Source of the DNA: Verrucomicrobiota bacterium
GTDB lineage: Bacteria > Verrucomicrobiota > Verrucomicrobiia > Limisphaerales > UBA9464
NCBI GenBank assembly: GCA_025360495.1
Contig: JANYCC010000163.1
Coordinates: forward strand, 1 to 49,345
Reading direction: 5' to 3'
Length of the DNA: 49,345 bases
A program made the position numbers and the translations under genes. Under the pieces are notes generated by a model. It searched no databases. It saw nothing but the letters and a program-made list of their open reading frames with translations, and had not been told where the DNA came from. Shown here piece after piece: positions 3,143 through 37,040 of this stretch. Each line of letters starts with the position of its first letter. The first letter of the stretch is position 1.

Positions 3143-4321
3143 CTACACGCCGCCGATCCATTTCCGATCGTCCCACACCGCCTTCAAGGAGGTCAGGTTG
3201 CGGGGGTCAAACACATGGCCGGCGGCCTTCCCCAACCGCCCCTTGCGGAGCGCCTGCCAGGCATCGCTGGCATTGATCGCGACATGCTGCAACACGCTCG
3301 GATCCCGGTAGCAATCGATCATGCAGCGGGTGCACCCGTCGCGAATCAGCTTCGAGTCGTCCCACTCGTACACATTGCACATCGGCGTCTCCCAGAAATG
3401 GCACCGGTAGAGGTTCAGATGCCAGTCGAGGTAGAAGTACTTGTGGCCGCCCAGACACCCGAAATGCTCCTTCTCGCCCTTCACATGGCGTTGCATTTCG
3501 GTCAGCGATTCGGTCGGGTTGACCACCGGAAACCCGCTCCGCTGCTTCATCCGCTTGATCTTCTCGAACAACTCCCACATCTCGTCGTTCGAATAGCTCA
3601 CCAACCCGCCATCGCTGAAACTCAGGTAACTGCTCTTCAGGTTGGTCAGCGGATAACTGAAGGTGCAGCTCTTGAACCCCATCGCTTCCAGGAATTCGGG
3701 GAGCTTGTCGTAATCCTCGATCAACCGGCTGGCCGTCACGCTCGCCGTCGTCTGGATCCCGGCCCCTTGGAAAAATTGATTCGCCCGCCGGATCTTGCGG
3801 CATACATCCGGCAATCCCCGGTTCTTCTCGTGCTTCGCCACGTCATGGGCGTCGATCGACATGATCACGCTGCTCAGGCCGTCGGAAGCCAGCGCCCGCA
3901 TGTTTTCCTCGTTCCACAGGCCGCCGTTGGTGCAGATCATCGGGTGGATGCCCTGGCGCGCCGAGGCCCGCACCATGGCGCGGAGATCGCGATGAACCAT
4001 GGGTTCGCCGCCGACGAACAGCAGGTAGCCGATGTGGTTGCGCTTCGCGATGTCGATCACGTCCAACGATTCCTGGAGCGTCACCGAGCGGCGCTTCTTG
4101 GGGTCGAACTGCGAGCGCGCGAACCCGCAGAACCCACAGTCGGCGTTGCACAGGTTGGTGATCGCGAACTGGAGATAACCCGGCCCGCCATTCTTGAGGA
4201 CATCCCCCAACAATTTGAGGACCGGCGTGCGCGGGCGCGGAACGGGGCGCGACAGGTCATCGGCCACCGCGACGGAGGCGGCGGAGGCGGCGGGCTTTTC
4301 AGGCAGGACGGCGGAACTCAT
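3143..4321 (-). CDS. Radical SAM protein with C-terminal auxiliary-cluster-like cysteines
   Basis: 392-aa ORF; CNADCGFC (CxxxCxxC), FVGGEPMVHRD (GGE motif), C-terminal cysteines GCLGG...YRCHFWETPMC...CTRCMIDC resembling SPASM/twitch-type auxiliary cluster ligands. Confidence 0.9.
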   Translation of the reverse strand: MSSAVLPEKPAASAASVAVADDLSRPVPRPRTPVLKLLGDVLKNGGPGYLQFAITNLCNADCGFCGFARSQFDPKKRRSVTLQESLDVIDIAKRNHIGYLLFVGGEPMVHRDLRAMVRASARQGIHPMICTNGGLWNEENMRALASDGLSSVIMSIDAHDVAKHEKNRGLPDVCRKIRRANQFFQGAGIQTTASVTASRLIEDYDKLPEFLEAMGFKSCTFSYPLTNLKSSYLSFSDGGLVSYSNDEMWELFEKIKRMKQRSGFPVVNPTESLTEMQRHVKGEKEHFGCLGGHKYFYLDWHLNLYRCHFWETPMCNVYEWDDSKLIRDGCTRCMIDCYRDPSVLQHVAINASDAWQALRKGRLGKAAGHVFDPRNLTSLKAVWDDRKWIGGV

Positions 4322-9490: not shown

Positions 9491-10252
9491 ATGATCCCCA
9501 GCGAGGCAGCCGCACTGCTCGACCGGTTCCAACGCGGCGAGGTGACGCGTGACGAGGCGGTCCGCGCCTTCCAAGCCGCGCCGATGGTGGATCTCGGATT
9601 TGCCGTCGTCGACACGCACCGGGCATTGCGGAAGGGCTTTCCCGAGGTGATTTTCGGGGCCGGCAAAACCCCCGCCCAAGTCAACGCCATCGCCGCGAAA
9701 ATCATCGCCGCCGATGGACGCGTGCTCGTCACCCGGGTCACCGCCGATCACGCCCGGCATTTCCGTCGGAAGTTCCGTCGGGCGGGATATCACGAGGCGG
9801 CCCGGTGCCTGACCTTCGAGACCCAACCGTTGCCGCGCCGACCGGGGTATATCGCCGTGGTGGCCGCGGGGACCTCCGATCTGCCGGTGGCGGAGGAGGC
9901 CGCCGTCACCGCGGAATTCATGGGCAACGAGGTGCGGCGCATTTCCGACGTCGGGGTGGCGGGATTGCACCGCCTCTTGCAACGCCTGCCCGATCTGCAG
10001 GCCGCCAACGTCATCATCGTGGTGGCGGGCATGGAGGCCGCCCTGCCCTCGGTGATCGGCGGCCTGGTCGGCAAACCGCTGATCGGGGTGCCCACCAGCG
10101 TGGGTTATGGATCCCATTTCGGCGGGGTGACCGCCCTGCTCGGGATGCTCAATTCGTGCGCCAGCGGCCTGACGGTGGTGAACATCGACAATGGATTCGG
10201 AGCCGGTTATGCGGCGAGTGGCATCAATGCCCTGGCCGCCGGCAACCCGTGA
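9491..10252 (+). CDS. larB: Nickel-pincer cofactor biosynthesis protein LarB (PurE-like carboxylase)
   Basis: 253-aa ORF; GYIAVVAAGTSDLPVAEEAAVTAEFMGNEV..., VAGMEAALPSVIGGLVGKPLIGVPTSVGYG, typical PurE-like C-terminal domain of LarB. Confidence 0.92.
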   Translation: MIPSEAAALLDRFQRGEVTRDEAVRAFQAAPMVDLGFAVVDTHRALRKGFPEVIFGAGKTPAQVNAIAAKIIAADGRVLVTRVTADHARHFRRKFRRAGYHEAARCLTFETQPLPRRPGYIAVVAAGTSDLPVAEEAAVTAEFMGNEVRRISDVGVAGLHRLLQRLPDLQAANVIIVVAGMEAALPSVIGGLVGKPLIGVPTSVGYGSHFGGVTALLGMLNSCASGLTVVNIDNGFGAGYAASGINALAAGNP

Positions 10253-10272: not shown

Positions 10273-11685
10273 ATGCGAACCCTTTACCTCGACATTTTTT
10301 CCGGGCTCAGCGGCGACATGTTTCTCGGTGCGCTGATCGATCTGGGCGCCGATTTGCCGAAGCTCGAACGCGAACTCCGCCGACTGCCGCTGGACGGTTA
10401 CCATCTCCACGCCGCCCGCGCCTCCAAAGCCGCGATCGAAGGGGTGAAGTTTGAGGTGCATCTCGCCGATACGGAGTGCGGACACGGGCACGGGCATGGG
10501 CACGATCACGATCACGATCACGATCATGGGCACGGGCACGATCACGCACCCGTAGCCGCCGAGGTGCCGAGGCGGACCACGGAAGGATCCCAACCGGTCC
10601 CGCCTCAGGACTTCGTCGGCCCCGGGAAAGCAGGGGATCCGCCTCAGGACTTCGTCGGCTACGGGAAAAAAGGAGTTCCGCCTCATCATTACGTCGGCCC
10701 CGGCCACCGGGATCATGCCGCCATCCGCCGGTTGATCCTGGAGAGCAGCCTCGGTGATTGGGTGAAGGAAAAATCGCTGGCCGTGTTCGGACGGATCGCG
10801 GTGGCGGAGGGCAAGATCCACGGGGTGCCGCCCGATCGGGTGCATTTCCACGAGGTCGGCGCCGTGGATTCCATCGTCGACATTGTCGGTGCGTGCATCG
10901 CGCTGGATCTGTTGGGAAGGCCGCGGGTGTTGAGCGGAAGGGTGGTCGAGGGGACGGGTTTCGTGAAATGTGCCCACGGACGGATGCCTCTGCCCGCACC
11001 GGCGACCCTGGAGATCCTCGGCGCCCGCGGAGTGGGCGTGACCCAATGCGAGGAACCGCACGAATTGGTCACCCCGACGGGTGCGGCGTTGCTGGCGGAA
11101 TTCGCGGAAACATTCGGCCCGATGCGCTCGGTGGTCGGGGCACGGGTCGGTTATGGACTTGGAACCCGGGACCACCAGACCCGGCCCAACGTGGTGCGCG
11201 CGCTCCTTTGGGAGGAGGAAGCCGCGGCGGAAGCGGGGCACGATTGGGAGACCGACACCGTGGCGGTGCTGGAGACCAATGTGGACGACCTGAACCCGGA
11301 GATCCTCGGGCACGTGTTGGACAAGGCGCTCCGTTGGGGTGCGCTCGACGCCTTTCACACGCCGGTGCAGATGAAAAAACAACGACCCGGCGTGTTGCTC
11401 ACGATCCTCTGCAGCCCGGGTGAAGCGGATCGATTCACCGAATTGCTGCTGACCGAGACCAGCGCGTTCGGGGTGAGACGGACCCTGGCCGAACGGCGCA
11501 AGCTCCGTCGCGAGGTGGTGGAGGTGAAGACCGCGTTCGGGAGTGTTAAAGTGAAATTGGGGCGGCTCGACGGCCGGGTGGTGCAGGCGGCGCCGGAGTT
11601 TGAGTCGTGCCGGTCGGTGGCGGTGCAGGCGGGGGTGACCTTGAAGGAGGTCTATGCGGCGGCGGCCCGGGCGGTGGAAGAATGA
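10273..11685 (+). CDS. larC: Nickel-pincer cofactor insertion protein LarC, single uninterrupted ORF with His-rich and repeat-derived insert
   Basis: LYLDIFSGLSGDMFLGALIDLG, HFHEVGAVDSIVDIVGACIALDLL, PAPATLEIL, ELVTPTGAALLAEF, VLETNVDDLNPEILG, GALDAFHTPVQMKKQRPGVLLTILC. Confidence 0.93.
   Translation: MRTLYLDIFSGLSGDMFLGALIDLGADLPKLERELRRLPLDGYHLHAARASKAAIEGVKFEVHLADTECGHGHGHGHDHDHDHDHGHGHDHAPVAAEVPRRTTEGSQPVPPQDFVGPGKAGDPPQDFVGYGKKGVPPHHYVGPGHRDHAAIRRLILESSLGDWVKEKSLAVFGRIAVAEGKIHGVPPDRVHFHEVGAVDSIVDIVGACIALDLLGRPRVLSGRVVEGTGFVKCAHGRMPLPAPATLEILGARGVGVTQCEEPHELVTPTGAALLAEFAETFGPMRSVVGARVGYGLGTRDHQTRPNVVRALLWEEEAAAEAGHDWETDTVAVLETNVDDLNPEILGHVLDKALRWGALDAFHTPVQMKKQRPGVLLTILCSPGEADRFTELLLTETSAFGVRRTLAERRKLRREVVEVKTAFGSVKVKLGRLDGRVVQAAPEFESCRSVAVQAGVTLKEVYAAAARAVEE
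10549..10714 (+). repeat. Palindromic repeat with three direct ~39-bp units, inside the larC reading frame
   Basis: Inverted arm CCCGTAGCCGCCGAGGTGCCGAGGCGGACC (10549-10578) opposite GGTCCCGCCTCAGGACTTCGTCGGCCCCGGG (10596-10626); CGCCTCA at 10601, 10640 and 10679 (period 39 bp), encoding PPQDFVGPGKAGD / PPQDFVGYGKKGV / PPHHYVGPGHRDH. Confidence 0.85.
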
Positions 11686-36841: not shown

Positions 36842-36929
36842 CCGTAGCCGACGAGGTACGAGGCGGATCCCCGTAGCCGACGAGGCACGAGGCGGATCCC
36901 CGTAGCCGACGAGGTTCGAGGTGGACCCC
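36842..36929 (-). repeat. 29-bp tandem repeat, 3 units, same family as the larC insert
   Basis: CCGTAGCCGACGAGGTACGAGGCGGATCC / CCGTAGCCGACGAGGCACGAGGCGGATCC / CCGTAGCCGACGAGGTTCGAGGTGGACCC. Confidence 0.9.
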
Positions 36930-37012: not shown

Positions 37013-37040
37013 GGTCCGCCTCGTACCTCGTCGGCCACGG
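37013..37040 (+). repeat. Inverted single copy of the 29-bp repeat
   Basis: GGTCCGCCTCGTACCTCGTCGGCCACGG, reverse complement of the units at 36842-36929. Confidence 0.85.

Follow-up and report, generated by a model that had tools for sequence, protein, structure and literature searches.

A GTAG-tagged REP cluster as the very probable source of a 53-residue segment in a verrucomicrobial LarC

The gene larC on contig JANYCC010000163.1 of a Verrucomicrobiota genome (GCA_025360495.1) contains an array of short DNA repeats that also recur between genes of the window, the whole 49,345-nucleotide stretch of DNA analysed here. How such repeats came to be read in frame within an enzyme, and whether they serve it, are the questions raised by this locus.

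The larC segment and its absence from related proteins

LarC1 and LarC2 (NCBIfam) and PF01969 (Pfam) match the larC product well above cut-off, with normal domain scores despite the insert, and the gene is laid out as follows:

9491..10252, + strand: larB-like gene directly upstream of larC (ORF and codon-usage score; named from its sequence and gene order)
10273..11685, + strand: larC, nickel-pincer cofactor biosynthesis protein, 470 aa, intact (NCBIfam and Pfam)
10477..10545, + strand: His-rich loop, residues 69–91 (alignment and translations; present in relatives, variable in length)
10546..10704, + strand: inserted segment, 159 nt or 53 codons, residues 92–144 (relatives lack it)
10552..10575, + strand: REP copy A, GTAGCCGCCGAGGTGCCGAGGCGG, translated as VAAEVPRR (no mismatch to the family pattern)
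10600..10623, − strand: REP copy B, its GTAG changed to GGGG, translated as PPQDFVGP (2 mismatches)
10639..10662, − strand: REP copy C, GTAGCCGACGAAGTCCTGAGGCGG, translated as PPQDFVGY (no mismatch)
10678..10701, − strand: REP copy D, degenerate, translated as PPHHYVGP (4 mismatches; keeps the 39-nt register of B and C)

The segment is built from four copies of a 23–24-nt repeat, one inverted and three direct, and much of this had been recognized in the initial annotation, which described an inverted arm (present at 10549–10578) followed by three direct units (starting at 10600, 10639 and 10678, indeed 39 nt apart). Its placement within larC also stands, with limits now set at 10546–10704, slightly to the left of the start at 10549 first given. 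The 39 nt proposed as the unit are better regarded as a spacing, the unit itself being a 23–24-nt hairpin headed by GTAG, and the count of one inverted and three direct elements becomes four GTAG-type units, one on the + and three on the − strand, the last of them degenerate. Copies A and B face each other head-to-head across a 24-nt spacer, and the cluster can be described as one such dimer with two further copies in tandem.

A segment of this kind could be an old feature of LarC, and comparison with relatives argues otherwise. A tblastn search over 39 genomes, that of the window included, detected LarC in 38, and residues 92–144 were unmatched in LarC of the 37 relatives; in most of these the match ends near residue 92 and restarts near 145, and in congeners G003 and G008 (83–85% identity) the two flanking matches abut, being separated by 6 nt at most. 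The segment is likewise exclusive to the window's protein in an alignment with 12 orthologues, and inspection of LarC translations from 29 relatives revealed no such segment wherever the loop was in view. Orthologues thus match on both sides of residues 92–144 and not within them, the opposite of the ordinary protein-level conservation across the order that the initial annotation had named as the result that would speak against capture.

What the relatives do share is the His-rich loop, which varies freely among them. An AlphaFold2 model (mean pLDDT 73, 13 sequences) assigns pLDDT below 50 to residues 66–143, between a strand at 58–64 and a helix at 148–157, and the insert is therefore predicted to sit in a pre-existing disordered loop of variable length within an otherwise intact protein. 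The DNA alignment of the locus was made with the insert left out, and a target-site signature is not definable at the insert because the loop is too variable. In the more distant G036 (locus L077) and G025 (L086), the same His-rich loop of LarC holds a far longer insertion. The two insertions are alike in sequence and look folded (GPHGGPLV...ELSVFETNVPPRFRLYF), and they bear no relation to REPs.

The genome is a metagenome-assembled genome (MAG) of 482 contigs, many of which end in REP clusters, and a repeat cluster might conceivably have been misjoined into larC by assembly or binning. This is highly improbable, since normal LarC domains lie in frame on both sides of an insert of exactly 53 codons, the larB–larC order is intact, and comparable in-frame inserts are present in further, independent MAGs.

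A dispersed hairpin family and its candidate transposase

The same repeat lies between genes of the window at four positions:

36844..36866, + strand: intergenic REP, short variant
36873..36895, + strand: intergenic REP, short variant
36902..36924, + strand: intergenic REP, short variant, 2 core mismatches
37016..37038, − strand: intergenic REP, short variant, in opposite orientation to the + copies at 36844–36924

The first three (starts 36844, 36873 and 36902) confirm the 29-nt intergenic period noted earlier. Searching the entire 5.8 Mb MAG at up to two mismatches gave 66 matches to the long variant and 153 to the short one, with none for either reversed-pattern control, so that the repetition is far beyond chance. 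A non-redundant set at up to three mismatches holds at least 234 copies of the DNA motif, which probably underestimates the true number, as it does that of REP-flanked transposase genes, because contigs often end in or near REP clusters (e.g., C275:12-34, C427:11-33, C85:27-49 and C305:11-34).

The unit reads GTAG-CCG-M-C-GA-X-(GTN or GTNN)-Y-GA-G-G-CGG, 23–24 nt in length and thus within the 20–40 nt of a REP with an unpaired GTAG end; 159 of the 234 copies match this consensus exactly, GTAG included. At the loop-closing X–Y position the pair is G–C in 153 copies, A–T in 49, C–G in 26 and non-Watson–Crick in only six. Watson–Crick pairing thus occurs in 228/234, against a mean of 115 after shuffling of the 3′ side. 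In copies related by descent such covariation falls short of proof, and it supports an imperfect hairpin, whose stem contains a tandem G·A mismatch; an irregular stem is also needed by the TnpA-REP of E. coli (PMC8266576). Neighboring copies are most frequently arranged head-to-head (65 cases, spacer mode 22 nt), followed by 55 head-to-tail cases, mostly 25–43 nt apart.

These properties bear on whether the larC segment could be an ordinary protein repeat, a 39-nt tandem duplication in a low-complexity loop whose likeness to intergenic DNA reflects GC-rich chance. The segment is indeed GC-rich and adjoins a His-rich simple repeat. Yet two of its copies show no mismatch to a family pattern whose reversed controls find nothing in 5.8 Mb, the covarying pair is kept, and A and B retain the head-to-head geometry of the family, leaving this explanation with next to no probability.

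By its unit, its predicted stem-loop and its high, dispersed and mainly intergenic copy number, the repeat is classed from sequence as a GTAG-tagged REP. Its inverted doublets with preferred spacing, together with a REP-flanked RAYT gene, likewise assign it to the REPINs. That gene was missed by a PF01797 search, which returned two Y1_Tnp genes (C476 and C325) with no REPs nearby in this genome and, in the congeners, matches with no REPs nearby either. The resulting reading that no REPtron is present was overturned when the REP-specific model NF047646 recovered a candidate at C158:902-1303(−). The full protein (C158:776-1342(−)) displays an HUH motif (MPDHLHLL) and a tyrosine ahead of ILANPVR, and its gene is flanked by REPs at 708–730 and 754–776 on one side and at 1389–1411 on the other, the TAG of one flanking REP serving as the stop codon. 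This layout of a gene plus flanking REPs is the same as that of REPtrons (PMC3733652, PMC3116915).

RAYT homologues compared across relatives are 47–72% identical, each with flanking GTAG hairpins. The REP type of the window's genome borders those of G015, G042 and locus L206, and variants with 3–4 mismatches border those of G019, G044 and G003; next to those of G032 and G013, the flanking sequence reads as different GTAG hairpins. The REP family has thus very probably been mobilized by the RAYT (TnpA-REP) HUH tyrosine transposase of its own genome. Weighing against this are a C158 score of 53.5 bits, below the 80-bit cut-off of NF047646, and an imperfect correlation between RAYT and REP presence among relatives: G005 has 236 REP copies and only a distant RAYT, while RAYT homologues of G003 and G032 are accompanied by other REP variants. 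Different REPs flanking related homologues make the co-evolution of transposase and repeat directly testable.

With considerable confidence, then, the larC segment can be read as an in-frame cluster of GTAG-tagged REPs from a dispersed family that RAYT very probably mobilized. The suggestion that a mobile or spreading repeat had been captured in larC agrees with the in-frame position, the abundance of the family and the LarC proteins of relatives.

Relation to known elements

GTAG-tagged REPs, with their dimers, RAYT neighbors and intragenic copies, were described by Di Nocera, De Gregorio and Rocco in 2013 (PMC3733652), who found in-frame intragenic copies to be most numerous in the verrucomicrobium Opitutus terrae and already proposed that such copies are neutral within linkers or loops. 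The present family shares with theirs the GTAG end, the short stem-loop, the high copy number, the head-to-head dimers and larger groups, the REP-flanked RAYT genes and the in-frame intragenic copies. O. terrae belongs to a different verrucomicrobial group, the two families being compared here by description and not by consensus sequence, and LarC is absent from the host genes named in the main text of that study. In Pseudomonas fluorescens, the inverted REP doublet is the repeated unit and is tied to a specific RAYT (Bertels and Rainey 2011, PMC3116915); doublet and RAYT association are the same here, but the P. fluorescens doublets were described in extragenic space, whereas a sizeable share is intragenic in some of the present genomes.

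The parallel first drawn was with the palindromic elements of Rickettsia. It is apt as an analogy, these also being palindromic repeats found in frame within unrelated genes, essential ones included, but a GTAG-tagged REP/REPIN accompanied by a RAYT is the closer match. Family 1 of the Rickettsia elements measures about 150 nt (PMC10969869), the R. conorii sequences have CGTC ends, and no dedicated transposase goes with CGTC repeats (PMC3733652); the larC-type REP differs from that class in its GTAG end and REP-flanked RAYT.

Beyond the 2013 study, no report of this REP family was found in a literature search that covered few subscription papers. Added here are the REP family of this group, a RAYT whose flanking REPs have diversified, a clear LarC insertion set against many insert-free orthologues, and many in-frame cases in relatives. 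LarC thereby provides a clean example from nature in which a bacterial mini-mobile element has lengthened an enzyme by 53 residues with its frame unbroken, and the likely transposase has been found.

Reading frame, tolerance and copies in other genes

How the frame of larC was kept requires no special mechanism, because the REP is stop-free in five of six frames, or in four for the commonest A–T variant; at least one frame is open in 33 of the 36 REP clusters of the genome. We infer RAYT activity, the order of events and neutrality as follows. RAYT would act on single-stranded head-to-head REP dimers, and the dimer of A and B would have entered the His-rich loop after the lineage split from the sampled congeners. 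One REP would then have multiplied in tandem with a 39-nt period, like other arrays of this genome. The reading frame would have survived given an insert that is a multiple of three and these open frames, and the insertion would have been tolerated in a disordered loop whose length is unconstrained.

In its own genome the family is nearly all intergenic: a home-made gene caller based on codon usage labels 84% of that DNA coding, yet only 13 of the 252 loose matches lie within genes, and several of these 13 are chance matches at four mismatches. Credible in-gene copies other than those of larC are located in a WD40 kinase loop (C202), at a glycosyltransferase C-terminus (C276) and in a Gate-domain protein (C176), where a degenerate copy occupies a linker that differs from one relative to another. 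In-gene copies are more frequent elsewhere. A public-genome scan placed the REP pattern almost wholly in MAGs of Verrucomicrobia among the matches listed, and 49 of 267 copies at the loci inspected, which were selected for having REPs, lie in predicted genes. In G042, 11 of 42 head-to-head dimers are within genes, where they use open frames and avoid the one that reads a stop in GTAG, a usage that matches the prediction for random insertion with purging. Host genes identified by family searches in other genomes include valS, gatB, dnaK, ubiD and a molybdopterin oxidoreductase.

A stronger claim of the initial annotation was that the repeat had been domesticated as a protein linker, meaning that captured 13-residue PPQDFVG(Y/P)GK.G repeats were selected as a functional spacer, for example one that modulates how the His-rich loop handles nickel. 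The perfect 39-nt register of the three units and a larC intact throughout would fit such a role, and with only 17 of the 55 head-to-tail spacings in the genome divisible by three this register is at least what frame selection leaves; but the frame must be kept with or without function. The segment is found in one genome only, loop length is dispensable across relatives, differences between B and C are non-synonymous, and in-gene copies across genes and genomes occupy every stop-free frame instead of encoding one peptide. Domestication is therefore very doubtful, and the claim was not borne out in a loop already variable, His-rich and predicted to be disordered. Such a loop and the use of every stop-free frame fit neutral tolerance, so that a non-domesticated REP cluster is adopted as the default, which is not a demonstration. 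A broader proposal, that RAYT-driven REPINs of this verrucomicrobial group routinely yield in-frame protein segments, a few of which, such as the 13-residue repeats of larC, are now functional, is unlikely; if true, it would concern roughly one dimer in four in some genomes, essential genes included. Genomes rich in in-frame insertions within housekeeping genes make the question of neutral versus useful segments statistically approachable. For annotation, extra residues resembling SRRREEA...PPPHVGGY in verrucomicrobial proteins can be recognized as REP insertions.

Several individual loci deserve mention. In the WD40 kinase gene (L135, about 2204–2260), a tract of GAGGCG repeats after the REP encodes SASASASA and is possibly the product of slippage seeded by the REP. 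The valS of MAG LaPlata_bin-1618 (L183:496-3789, CAIWAH010000107.1) has an ORF about 240 residues beyond the family model and at least three different in-frame inverted repeats with GTAG starts and CTAC ends (1189–1256, 1493–1578 and 3146–3267); this single essential gene appears to hold three distinct REP families. Finally, the REP family of the window's genome is shared by MAG records titled Klebsiella pneumoniae (L193, L203, L215) and by others titled Akkermansia muciniphila (L199, L201 and L206 among them), titles that look wrong for environmental verrucomicrobial bins.
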